From: Lachnospiraceae bacterium
Lineage (GTDB): Bacteria; Bacillota; Clostridia; Lachnospirales; Lachnospiraceae
DNA: 36,206 nt
Assembly (NCBI GenBank): GCA_022768825.1
Contig: JALEJB010000100.1
Location: forward strand, 1 to 36,206
Reading direction: 5' to 3'
The position numbers and the translations under genes were made by a program. Below are positions 21,408-34,758 of this stretch, piece by piece. Position 1 is the stretch's first letter, and every line of letters begins with the position of its first letter. The notes beneath the pieces are model-generated. The model was not told the DNA's origin. It did not search any database and worked only from the letters and a program-made list of their open reading frames with translations.

Positions 21408-21473
21408 GTCCGCGCTTTGCGTACCACAAGGGAAAATGAATATGCTAGAATGTGATAAATGGCAGACAGTGTC
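21408..21473 (+). promoter_or_regulatory. Copy 1 of three-copy operator/promoter module (GTCCGC-N5-GCGTAC ... TGCTAGAAT ... GGCAGACAGTGTC)
   Basis: Aligns by eye to 27154-27219 and 34693-34758. Confidence 0.75.
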
Positions 21474-21510
21474 CAGAGAACGGCTGACATTGTAGCAGAT
21501 ATGAGGAGAG

Positions 21511-21972
21511 GTGCGGCAGGATTTGATGAAAAAGAAGCTGGATTTTAATTCAAAGACAACGTCCGAACTGTTTCAGATGATTGAGGAGTCACCGGAGCAA
21601 TTTGCAAGCAATATTCAGAAATCGAAAGACTATGGAAGGAAGATGTCCGTAGCCTCCTATCTGGATCAGTTGTTAGAACAGTACAAGATGAGCATTTCGG
21701 ATTTTATTACAAAGACAAATTTAAGCAAATCTTTTGTCTATCAGATTTTTTCGGGCGAGCGCAACCCGGGGCGCGACATTCTGCTACGCATTGCGTTTGC
21801 GATGAATCTGACACTGGAGGAGACACAGGAATTACTTATGATGGGACAGAAAGGGGCGTTGTACCCGAAGGTGCGCAGGGACGCAGCAATCATCTGCTGT
21901 CTGGAGCAGCGGCTGTCGCTGGGTGAGACGGATGAGTTCCTGAAGTCGATAGATGAAAAGACATTACTATAG
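21511..21972 (+). CDS. XRE-like helix-turn-helix protein
   Basis: 'YLDQLLEQYKMSISDFITKTNLSKSFVYQIFSGERNPGRDILLRIAFAMNLTLEETQELL'. GTG 21511 or ATG 21526. Confidence 0.75.
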   Translation: MRQDLMKKKLDFNSKTTSELFQMIEESPEQFASNIQKSKDYGRKMSVASYLDQLLEQYKMSISDFITKTNLSKSFVYQIFSGERNPGRDILLRIAFAMNLTLEETQELLMMGQKGALYPKVRRDAAIICCLEQRLSLGETDEFLKSIDEKTLL

Positions 21973-22032
21973 GAGCGAAGATTGGGGCGGTCTGTTTTTC
22001 GAACAGATCGTGTCAAAAGAAAGGAGTCATTT

Positions 22033-23288
22033 ATGAGATTGAAAAAGTTTCTATCAGCAATACTGTCATTTGTGATGGTATTCACACTCTTTGGCGGCGC
22101 GATGACGACTTCGGCAGCAACCGTCAAACTCGACAGCGAGCTTACCGCTGCAAAAAAGCTGGGCTTTTTGAGCGCCTCGCAGGCGAAGCGCATCAACAAG
22201 ACCGCCACGCAGACTGAGGTCACGAAAATGATCACCACAGCGGTGAAAAAGCGTTATGGCAAAACCGGGAAATTTCTCGCGGACAGAAAAAAAGCGGCAG
22301 GATCTTCCACGGCGACAAGGCACTATTTCGCGAGCACGCTCTATTTTGCGATGTACCAGTAGATACTTTCTCCCAAATACCCCGGCTATGAGGACTACAT
22401 GTTAATGGCAACAGCGGAAATGAGCGATAAAGTCATGGCTGACGCGGAAATTATGGGTGTCAGAAAGGACGGCTCGATCGGTACATTAAACATTTTTGAG
22501 GACTGTGCCGACCTCGAGAGCATTCAGGGAAATGACAAGATCGCGAAAAAGTACAAGTATATGGCCGATTACGGCTCCGACTCATCCGTGGTTTATGTAT
22601 GCGCGCTTTACGACAGGGTAACAGGGCTTCCCGTTATGTCGCTTGACAGCAAGAACAGGTTCCTTCCGCAGAAAAAATGACCGTCGGAGATGTGGCGCGT
22701 GCCACACTGCGGTTTTACAGAAGCCTTGAAGGAAAAGAAAACTATGTCAGGCTGTCAAAGGCGGGCACATACAACAAAAAAATTATTACAGATAAGCTTC
22801 TGAACAAGAAAAGCTCCCTTCCGGAGGCATCCAACCAGAAGCTTCCGGTATGGCGCGGGGTCTTAAATGGCACGATGGGATTTGTGAAGTATCAGGCTTT
22901 GGGTGGCAGAGCGGATAAGGTGATCCGCGAGGGAGACATCAAGGCAGCCGCGGACACCGGCTTTAACCATATGTCGATCATGATCAGCTTCCCGTGGCTC
23001 CAGGGGCTTCATCAAAAGGACGGTTACGTTGACAAGACCCGTCTGGAAGAACTTGACCGGGTGATTGCGCTGTGTATGAAATACGACATGCACGTTACGC
23101 TTGAAAATTGTGAGACACCCGGTATCAGCATGTGGGGCGAGGACGAACACGAGAAGGGTACGGAAAATCTTGCGAAGCCCGGAATGGCAAAAACCTATGC
23201 CGGCTACTGGGGGATGCTTGCAAAGCGATACAAGGGCATTGATAACAAATATTTGGCGTTCAACCTTATGGTGGAGCCGGGGGGTTAA
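22033..23288 (+). pseudogene. Decayed secreted GH5-like (TIM-barrel) glycoside hydrolase gene
   Basis: Signal peptide ORF is interrupted by in-frame TAG (22360-22362), then resumes in the same frame (22399-22680). It shifts -1 at an A6 run near 22677, continues with 'NHMSIMISFPW...NLMVEPGG' and stops before the rest of the catalytic domain. Confidence 0.7.
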
Positions 23289-23310
23289 AGTAAAAAAGGG
23301 GGAATTATTC

Positions 23311-25437
23311 ATGAAGAAACTTTGTTCTATGATTCTAAGTCTTATTCTTGTACTTGACTTTATTACGCCTGTATCTGCCGCGACAACACAGACATATATC
23401 GATATCAAATCTCGGGATTATTATTATGACGCAGCGCTGTGGACGAGGCAGGACAACATTATTCCAGGCGTATCCAAAGCAAAGTTTGCGCCAACGAAGC
23501 AGTGCACAAACGCGCAGATTATTACTGCGCTCTGGCGCGCTTTTGGCAAACCGGCTGTAAAGTCGGTAAAAAATCCCTTTACCGATGTAAAGAAAACAGA
23601 TTCCTGTTACAAGCCGGTGCTCTGGGCTGTAAAACAAGGCATTCTTCCAAACACTGCGAAGAGCAAATTTTATCCGACTAAAAAATGCACAAACGCAAAA
23701 ACCATAACTTATCTCTGGCGTGCTTTTGGCAAACCGGCCGCTTCTGTAAAAGGCACCGTCGCAAAGCGCTATGCTAAGAGCAAGTACTACAGGACTGCGG
23801 TCGCATGGGCAGACCGAAACGGTCTGTTCACGCTTCAGTGTAAAACCTTCAATCCGGGCGCAGTTACCACGCGGGCGGATATCGCTGTTTATCTGTATCT
23901 TGCGCTGGACAAAGATGTAAAAACGCCAACAGAAGCGCTGGCAGACATGAGCGGCTGGGGTATGAACATCTCCGATATCCTTATGGATAACGAACCTGAT
24001 CCTTTGAATCCTGACGACACCATTGGATACGCCACTACACGCCCGATGACCGAACCGTTCGGACTTGCGCTCAACTATTGGAACGGCGGCTTTGAATGGA
24101 TCGCCTACCACGAGCCACATGAAAAATCATTTACCGCCAGCGCATCAATACCTGATTATGAGGGCAAAAAATCATGGGTAGACTGGGTGGACGCACTGTT
24201 CTTTGCAGAAATCTTTACCAATGTACCGGACAAATCGGTAAAGGTCACGCTTAAAGACACCAGAATCGTGCTGGCAAACGGAAGTTTTGTCCCGCTTTCG
24301 GTTATGGACGGCAAGTACAGTCTGGTTACCGGCAGCGATGCCGACCTTAACGGCTGGTATCGTGCGGAACTGAAATTTGACAGGTCAAAACTGCCGGCAC
24401 CGAGTACAAAATTTAATGGCGCAAAAATCGAAACTACCTTGATCTCCGATATGTCTTTTCAATCTCCACAGGATAAGGCAGACTACTATATCCAGCTTTG
24501 CCACATGAAGTATGATCCTATCAAAGCGACGAATAACATTCTCGACCAGGGAACAAACATTGTCCGCCTTCCGGTTACATGGACGCCGTTTGTAAACGAC
24601 ACTACCTTTGAAATCGATGAGGTATGGCTTGAGCGAGTCGCAGAGGAGGTTGGTTACATCCTGCAGAATAACGCTTACTGCATACTTGATCTCCATAACG
24701 ACTATCTGGGAAAAAGCTTTGTCGGAGACCACTGGGAAACGCGTTGGATGGACGCGCGGTACAAAGATTATGTTGACCGCCGTTTTGCCGCAATTTGGCA
24801 GCAGATAGCAACCTATTTTAAGAATTATCCGCGAAAGCTGATGTTTGAGACCTGCAATGAGCCGACAATGTCGTGGTATGATGGTGTAGAGGAAGGCTAT
24901 TTTGAAGGACAGCGTTCGAGGGTAAACGAACTAAATGAGCTGTTTGTAGAAACTGTCCGCGCCACCGGGGGCAAGAATACAGATCGAATTTTAAATGTTG
25001 TCGCAGCAGAATACTCTACGGCTAAGACGCTTGAAAGCATGACTCCACCGCAGGATGACAACCTCATCATGCAGGTACACTCCTATGACCAGATCGAGGC
25101 GAGGAAATCAGGATTTGACAGCAAAGCAGAAACAGACAAATTTTTTGCCGCTATCGACGCATTCGTAAGCCGCACAGGAATACCTGTGATGATTGGCGAG
25201 ACCGGCGTCTCTCATCTGAAGCCAGAGGAGACCTATCTGTCCGAAATATCCTATTTCTTTAGACAGGCGAGGCAACGTAACATCCCCGTTCTATGGTGGG
25301 AAGATTACTACTCTATCAACGAATACAACAAGGACGATCTTGAGCATCTTGGGCGTATCTACTGGCTTTATAACAAGGAAACGGATAAATGGCAGCGAGG
25401 CAAAATACTCCGGACGATAAAGGATGCTGTAAAATAG
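23311..25437 (+). CDS. Secreted GH5-family glycoside hydrolase with N-terminal SLH repeats
   Basis: Signal peptide; three SLH-like repeats (e.g. 'YYDAALWTRQDNIIPG...FAPTKQCTNAQIITALWRAFGKP'); GH5 'NIVRLPVTW', 'LDLHND', 'ETCNEPTM' (acid/base), 'VMIGETGV' (nucleophile). Confidence 0.85.
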   Translation: MKKLCSMILSLILVLDFITPVSAATTQTYIDIKSRDYYYDAALWTRQDNIIPGVSKAKFAPTKQCTNAQIITALWRAFGKPAVKSVKNPFTDVKKTDSCYKPVLWAVKQGILPNTAKSKFYPTKKCTNAKTITYLWRAFGKPAASVKGTVAKRYAKSKYYRTAVAWADRNGLFTLQCKTFNPGAVTTRADIAVYLYLALDKDVKTPTEALADMSGWGMNISDILMDNEPDPLNPDDTIGYATTRPMTEPFGLALNYWNGGFEWIAYHEPHEKSFTASASIPDYEGKKSWVDWVDALFFAEIFTNVPDKSVKVTLKDTRIVLANGSFVPLSVMDGKYSLVTGSDADLNGWYRAELKFDRSKLPAPSTKFNGAKIETTLISDMSFQSPQDKADYYIQLCHMKYDPIKATNNILDQGTNIVRLPVTWTPFVNDTTFEIDEVWLERVAEEVGYILQNNAYCILDLHNDYLGKSFVGDHWETRWMDARYKDYVDRRFAAIWQQIATYFKNYPRKLMFETCNEPTMSWYDGVEEGYFEGQRSRVNELNELFVETVRATGGKNTDRILNVVAAEYSTAKTLESMTPPQDDNLIMQVHSYDQIEARKSGFDSKAETDKFFAAIDAFVSRTGIPVMIGETGVSHLKPEETYLSEISYFFRQARQRNIPVLWWEDYYSINEYNKDDLEHLGRIYWLYNKETDKWQRGKILRTIKDAVK

Positions 25438-34365: not shown

Positions 34366-34388
34366 ATTTTTCTCCATATATTTTGTAC

Positions 34389-34457
34389 AAAAAAAGGAAG
34401 GCCCGCAGGTCTTCCTTCCGGTCGCAGGCATCGCAAGTTTCTGCAACCTGATCACTA
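34389..34457 (-). ncRNA. Candidate AbiF-associated structured RNA (promoter-hairpin-terminator)
   Basis: Minus strand: TTGCAT-N17-TATCAT promoter (34464-34492), stem GGTTGCAG/CTGCGACC, then terminator AAGGAAG-A-CC-tgc-GG-G-CTTCCTT + T-run ending ~24 nt before the abi start. Confidence 0.6.
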
Positions 34458-34463
34458 ACAGAT

Positions 34464-34492
34464 ATGATACCATTGCTATCTGCTAAATGCAA
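34464..34492 (-). promoter_or_regulatory. Predicted promoter of the abi-upstream RNA
   Basis: TTGCAT-N17-TATCAT with extended -10 TGgTATCAT. Confidence 0.65.
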
Positions 34493-34692
34493 GCAGTATT
34501 TTGGCTAAATCTGCAATAATAGTATATGTAGTTTTAAAAGGTTTATGATAATCATTATGTGAAAGACAAAGATAATGTTATGTTCATTTTGCGAAGGTAA
34601 TAGTGGGTGATGTGTACATAGGAATTGCGGTGATATTTATGAATATAGAAGCATATGATGCAGAGTCTTTGAGGAAAGATGTTCAAGCAAAA

Positions 34693-34758
34693 GTCCGCAT
34701 CCTGCGTACCACAAGTGAGACTGAATCTGCTAAAATGTAACAAATGGCAGACAGTGTC
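34693..34758 (+). promoter_or_regulatory. Copy 3 of three-copy operator/promoter module
   Basis: GTCCGC atcct GCGTAC ... TCTGCTAAAATGTAACAAATGGCAGACAGTGTC. Confidence 0.75.

Follow-up and report, generated by a model that had tools for sequence, protein, structure and literature searches.

Class II activation by a protein of the Cro/CI family is known from lambda CI, which acts in this way at OR2 on the PRM promoter. Here we describe three promoter-like modules, each carrying the dyad GTCCGC-N5-GCGTAC, in a 36,206-nucleotide (nt) stretch of a Lachnospiraceae genome (contig JALEJB010000100.1, the whole of which is hereafter referred to as the window). We consider it likely that these modules are promoters bearing an operator for the helix-turn-helix (HTH) protein encoded at 21511-21972, which would be an autoregulated, kinase-linked activator of surface-protein genes. 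The proposed system shares with lambda CI/PRM a Cro/CI-type HTH, a 17-bp dyad near -42, a poor -35 element and positive autoregulation, the last being proposed here. It differs in that the window HTH belongs to another family outside the HTH domain, with no CI-type C-terminal domain seen, and in having an extended -10, one operator per promoter, a linked kinase and an activating role that we infer.

Restriction-modification controllers of the C.Esp1396I type likewise combine a small Cro/CI-type HTH with an autoregulatory operator before their own gene, but they lack a kinase partner, and C proteins use tandem operators whereas a single site serves each promoter here. The pknH and embR genes of Mycobacterium tuberculosis are linked and, as in the present case, associate a transmembrane Ser/Thr kinase genetically with a DNA-binding regulator; EmbR, however, is not a Cro/CI-type protein, and what we describe is one operon found in many lineages with an operator code of its own. 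EmbR is listed as a substrate of M. tuberculosis PknH (PMC6213207). Systems of serine/threonine kinases and phosphatases (STK/STP) are described as having no dedicated transcription factors (PMC6213207), and the targets of eukaryotic-like STKs as pleiotropic rather than exclusive (PMC4601284). Two-component systems resemble the present one in placing a membrane sensor kinase beside a DNA-binding regulator, with clade-specific operators and nearby targets, but a Ser/Thr kinase and a Cro/CI-type HTH here take the place of histidine kinase and receiver domain. HTH-kinase operons with matching operators would provide Hanks-type kinases with a dedicated output comparable to that of two-component systems, and would offer an entry to the control of surface proteins in gut Lachnospiraceae. 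No description of the HTH-kinase operon or its operators was found in the open-licence literature; the parts are known, and their arrangement seems undescribed.

Sequence and geometry of the modules

A repeat search of the window groups the modules into a 77-nt family of three copies (21400-21476, 27146-27222 and 34685-34761) with 83-91% mutual identity. The 17-bp dyad is matched exactly at three places in the 2.72-Mb genome, every one inside the window. An initial annotation had described modules of this kind at 21408, 27154 and 34693, with invariant half-sites, differing 5-nt centres and an extended -10 at a fixed distance without a good -35, and the sequence confirms that description at all three positions. 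All 12 half-site positions are invariant across the copies, and the centres (GCTTT, GTCGT and ATCCT) are all different, yet each ends in T. The distance from the dyad to TA[A/G]AAT, which in each module forms part of an extended -10 (TGCTA[A/G]AAT), is 21 nt in all three copies, and the -35 position is occupied by ACCACA or ACCAAA, a weak element at which no consensus promoter was called. Assuming a start 7 nt past the -10, the dyad and its spacing place the dyad centre at about -42. The components of the modules and the HTH gene are as follows:

21408-21424, + strand: putative operator 1, GTCCGC-GCTTT-GCGTAC, 5' of the HTH gene, centre at about -42
21443-21451, + strand: extended -10 TGCTAGAAT, with a start predicted from the -10 at about 21458
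21452-21473, + strand: conserved leader with AAATGGCAGACAGTGTC at its end
21511-21972, + strand: Cro/CI-type HTH regulator, with GTG 21511 or ATG 21529 as start and KSFVYQIFS as recognition helix
27154-27170, + strand: putative operator 2, GTCCGC-GTCGT-GCGTAC
27189-27197, + strand: extended -10 TGCTAAAAT, with a start predicted from the -10 at about 27204
34693-34709, + strand: putative operator 3, GTCCGC-ATCCT-GCGTAC
34728-34736, + strand: extended -10 TGCTAAAAT, with a start predicted from the -10 at about 34743

The fixed distance to the -10, the absent -35 and the TGN extension fit an activator contacting polymerase from -42, in agreement with the activator dependence suggested at the outset. 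In the mechanism we propose, a dimer of the HTH protein would bind the dyad with its centre about 42 bp 5' of the transcription start and touch RNA polymerase where the -35 is missing, activating the extended -10 promoter and thereby raising its own expression and that of the adjacent surface-protein genes. The main rival to activation keeps the same HTH-operator pairing and casts the HTH as a repressor, whose dimer on the dyad would block RNA polymerase until a signal released it. Cro/CI-type repressors commonly have dyads beside -35 regions, autoregulation is usual among repressors, and the structural relatives of the HTH model include the repressors DdrO, SinR and 434 Cro. We nevertheless regard repression as unlikely, although still of some weight: without a usable -35, the promoters at the window sites would be weak once derepressed, the dyad stands just 5' of the -35 and does not cover the -10 or the start, and a constant spacing of 21 nt from the -10 is suggestive of contact with polymerase.

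The modules could also be alike through recent duplication of promoter and gene start alone, with no dedicated factor involved. Copies 2 and 3 are part of a paralogous duplication of 1.1 kilobases (kb) that includes the downstream gene (27146-28234 versus 34685-35767, 79%), so that their mutual likeness proves little alone, and the leader is conserved too, despite having no known role. Copy 1 precedes the HTH gene, which is unrelated to the genes downstream of copies 2 and 3. This explanation is highly improbable in our assessment, as the centres vary while the half-sites are invariant, both half-sites shift in concert between clades, same-clade HTHs of other genera carry the same half-sites amid unrelated sequence, and the spacing is kept where the intervening sequence is not.

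The initial annotation had further noted that the region can be read as the tail of an open reading frame (ORF), and had favoured selection at the DNA level. The frame (KVRxxRTxRExExAKM, then stop) is indeed open in the three window copies, but no upstream ORF is shared, and TAA directly follows ACC in frame at related sites in C150, C157 and G004; we rejected a conserved coding-sequence tail on this evidence and give it almost no credence, and the comparative data agree with selection on the DNA. Because the promoter geometry is fixed, we also set aside the reading as a target of site-specific recombination with a variable centre.

Some further features of the modules were observed. The leader element AAATGGCAGACAGTGTC occurs exactly three times, once per module (21457-21473, 27203-27219 and 34742-34758), and lies at or past the predicted start. 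The leader and ribosome-binding site of modules 2 and 3, GTGTCAAAAGAAAGGAG, are found again behind the HTH gene (22004-22036), as if the HTH gene lay inside an older leader. Module 3 is also readable as a 33-amino-acid (aa) ORF, MNIEAYDAESLRK..., at 34639-34740, the beginning of which may resemble the N-terminus of a helicase family. Just 5' of module 1 lies an imperfect inverted repeat (20931-21172), whose 67-nt arms are 79% complementary and separated by 108 nt; it could be the relic of a small mobile element.

Sites of the same geometry in the genome and genus

By blastn, a fourth, partial copy of the module, without the exact dyad, was identified on contig C72. Compared with congeners, this copy is of a related form, GTATGC-N5-GCATAC, followed by CC-N-AAAG...TGAATATGCTACAAT; between the window and C72-type sites, both half-sites have changed jointly. 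A third form, GTGTGC-N5-GCATCC, is located 21 nt 5' of a -10 in the congener promoters of HTH and adjoining Big_2 genes. Scanning 10 genomes of the genus, all drafts in many contigs and some of them metagenome-assembled, with the pattern GNNYGC-N5-GCRTNCC-N20-TANAAT returned 19 sites in six genomes, eight of them in the source genome, against none for the reversed pattern used as control. TGN precedes the -10 hexamer at all 19 sites, though the pattern made no such demand, and these results are consistent with the operator-promoter module first suggested. As for the genome-wide dyad scan proposed at the same time, exact matches are confined to the window, but diverged sites of the same geometry occur elsewhere in the genome and genus.

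Genes downstream of the sites were called with a simple ORF rule and a ribosome-binding-site filter. The next gene is readable at 18 of the 19 sites and encodes a Cro/CI-type HTH or a signal-peptide protein (one is cut by a contig end past its signal peptide); the remaining site (G007) looks like a relic whose HTH was lost. The core locus in congeners reads, in order, dyad, HTH, dyad, Big_2 protein and kinase with leucine-rich repeats (LRR). The presumed targets include GH5, CBM/Big_2 and esterase proteins as well as large secreted proteins without any Pfam domain, so that the surface carbohydrate regulon of the initial annotation holds as regards surface proteins and, for carbohydrate, in some cases only.

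Beyond the genus, the 77-nt module as query against 397 genomes of the family gave marginal matches only, close to chance, as did the 21-nt core pattern with nine foreign matches, and the exact long pattern had no match in the wider contig collection. The dyad alone yielded chance matches in congeners, at least two of them within coding sequence. An order-wide scan of 395 genomes for GTCYGC-N5-GCGTACC followed after 21 nt by TANNNT returned four foreign matches, one of which adjoins a kinase gene, a distantly related HTH being encoded some 1.4 kb away; neither HTH nor kinase was found near the other three.

An alternative reading of the dyads is that they are intrinsic terminators of upstream genes, followed by promoters through accident. 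GTGTGC/GCATCC-type sites often read GGGATGCA...TGCATCCCTTTTT, with a T-run after the dyad, but the window and GTATGC/GCATAC sites have no T-run, a hairpin with T-run (GGGTCTTCAAATGAGACCCGGACATTTTTTT, about 27081-27113) already lies upstream of copy 2, and an exact 21 nt to the next -10 is needless for termination. We deem this most improbable; terminators would account for the GTGTGC/GCATCC sites at most.

HTH homologues, their operators and linked kinases

The window HTH matches Pfam HTH_26 with 27.8 bits (cut-off 22) and HTH_3 with 26.7 bits (cut-off 23). No NCBIfam family scores above its curated cut-off, the only match being TrbA (19.7 bits versus 96), and no PADLOC anti-phage defence family matches. 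An AlphaFold2 model (mean predicted local distance difference test score 88.8) depicts a lambda-repressor-like helix bundle with a low-confidence N-terminal tail and the recognition helix at residues 67-75; its PDB matches are weak and confined to HTH domains (DdrO, C.Esp1396I, 434 Cro and SinR). A threonine in the N-terminal tail is invariant in 57/57 sequences (set A2), and a looser motif around it is found in 118 of 122 distinct HTHs, the remaining four failing the regular expression yet having threonine at that place. It is a candidate phosphosite, or may simply cap the first helix at its N-terminus.

HTH loci from many genera were gathered by protein-profile search of contigs, without use of the DNA motif. 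Two rumen Lachnospiraceae loci (L146 and L147) encode an HTH 45% identical to that of the window by alignment (47% over the best tblastn segment), with helix SKSYVYQIF, and have GTCCGC-TGTCT-GCGTACC upstream, 21 nt before TATTCT. In Clostridium sp. NALB_7811_6 (L148), two sites are the sole matches to the GTCYGC-N5-GCGTAC type in that genome: GTCTGC-TGACA-GCGTACC lies 5' of the HTH-kinase operon with a spacing of 20 nt to TATAAT, and GTCCGC-TTCAC-GCGTACC lies 5' of the gene for an 829-aa secreted protein with a spacing of 21 nt to TACCAT. An Oscillospiraceae locus (L168), whose HTH has the helix ISKTYGYQIF, carries the window dyad in the opposite orientation. HTHs with helix ERTYGHQIF pair with GTGTGC-N5-GCACAC, present in two or three copies in several loci, and those with helix EKSYFYQIL pair with GTGGGC-N6-GCCCAC, found twice in L174 and twice in contig C130 of the source genome, where it would be the own operator of a second HTH-kinase-secreted protein locus (L046, minus strand).

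That half-sites vary by clade, tracking the recognition helix of the local HTH, is well supported by sequence, and the recurrence of the window half-sites beside same-clade HTHs points to the 21511 HTH as the factor, as originally suggested. The natural series GTGTGC/GCACAC, GTGTGC/GCATCC, GTGGGC/GCCCAC and GTCCGC/GCGTAC makes a joint change of regulator and operator specificity after duplication directly testable. We also observed GTGGGC-N5-GCCCAC before -10-like hexamers in G413, G414 and G415 (the genomes of L200, L191 and L192), outside the HTH loci studied.

Of 112 non-redundant HTH upstream regions, 10 contain a GC-rich dyad whose centre lies 29.5-31 nt before a -10, compared with a mean of 0.32 and a maximum of 3 in 100 rounds of dinucleotide shuffling and at most 4 in other windows of equal width; this result is supportive, not independent of the hypothesis, because the offset window was picked after the genus sites had been seen and the exact offset is common to five of the ten dyad loci, namely the window locus and four of the GTGTGC/GCACAC type. 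The count omits GTGTGC/GCATCC sites, whose arms pair at 4/6 positions; sites of that form were located with the pattern TGC-N5-GC[AG].

With a profile built from four kinases of HTH loci, a same-strand kinase was detected downstream of 72 of the 125 HTH homologues with enough downstream sequence (within 400 nt in 62), and the HTH and kinase reading frames overlap in many of the linked pairs. The HTH-kinase operon was found repeatedly in Lachnospiraceae, other Bacillota, Coriobacteriia and Chloroflexi, with matching operators in some clades. The window kinase has a Pkinase domain (97.9 bits), an HRDIKPKN motif and one hydrophobic segment (270-291); the three kinases inspected (window, L148 and L174) each have one such segment and an outer part, with LRR in the window and L148. 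Pfam scanning returned Pkinase and HTH only, with no histidine kinase or receiver domain. G003 retains, between its Big_2 and kinase genes, a C-terminal HTH fragment 85% identical to the window HTH, which suggests that the window HTH clade once occupied the core locus there.

Promoter geometry, HTH-operator pairing, a locus-level regulon and kinase linkage are thus supported by sequence comparison; direct binding, activation over repression and phosphorylation are what we infer. The window HTH and its sites would be a copy, since diverged, of the core system of the genus (GTGTGC/GCATCC sites, HTH, Big_2 protein and kinase), its recognition helix and half-sites having changed in concert, and the linked transmembrane kinase would probably relay an outside signal to the HTH, perhaps via the invariant tail threonine. 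The local regulon initially envisaged stands, with its scope underestimated: it appears to be one instance of a broader system of HTH, kinase and surface proteins whose operators are clade-specific. A more general proposal, which we offer tentatively and with less than even confidence, is that of a widespread bacterial signalling family: a transmembrane Ser/Thr kinase bearing an outer sensor would phosphorylate a dedicated Cro/CI-type activator on the invariant N-terminal threonine, with a clade-diverged helix-to-half-site code, paralogues free of cross-talk and surface-protein targets.

Several observations weigh against interpreting the modules as promoters of a kinase-linked activator. A dyad abutting the -35 region could serve repression too, and GTGTGC/GCATCC-type sites might be intrinsic terminators. 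The window HTH has no directly following kinase, the nearest intact one lying 9.6 kb off, at 31613, in the same cluster. Beyond a few clades, most HTH homologues lack such a dyad upstream; the -10 of L146/L147 is weak, and one L148 site has a spacing of 20 nt, not 21.

Gene neighbourhood and extent of the cluster

The remaining genes of the cluster within the window are the following:

22034-23288, + strand: decayed signal-peptide/GH5 gene behind the HTH gene, with a stop at 22360 and frame breaks
23311-25437, + strand: gene of an SLH/GH5 surface protein, its start likely at 23311 in an ORF open from 23101
27250-29124, + strand: protein with signal peptide, CBM-like, Big_2 and esterase parts
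29164-31251, + strand: GH5 and BspA-type LRR surface protein
31613-33358, + strand: Hanks-type Ser/Thr kinase with one predicted membrane span (about 270-291) and outer LRR, the HTH partner in congeners
34774-35769, + strand: protein with signal peptide, CBM-like and Big_2 parts, homologue of the second gene of the congeners' core locus
36070-36206, + strand: 5' part of a second kinase gene, the remainder being on contig C72

The end of the window is identical to the start of contig C72 over 141 bases, and the end of C72 likewise matches the start of C150. Contig C72 contains the rest of the second kinase gene and then a GTATGC/GCATAC-type operator. The extent of the cluster is based on these overlaps in a draft assembly; if they are true joins, a single cluster would hold five operators (three window-type and two GTATGC/GCATAC).

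Between the kinase and module 3, an Abi_2/AbiD-type abortive-infection protein is encoded on the minus strand (33418-34473; PADLOC AbiD, E 1.5e-61). An AAA-ATPase/PDDEXK_9 gene (25682-27019) shares 94.6% DNA identity with a stretch of congener L044, against about 80-90% for the neighbouring genes, and therefore looks recently exchanged. A 51-nt repeat, 92% identical, lies 5' of this ATPase gene (25624-25674) and 5' of the second kinase gene (35798-35848), and is present in congeners too. A remnant of a kinase C-terminus at 25558-25598, 90% identical to 33316-33356, indicates that a kinase gene was lost there. Three strong hairpins, two of them with T-rich tails, lie between the GH5 gene and the kinase (31299-31533).

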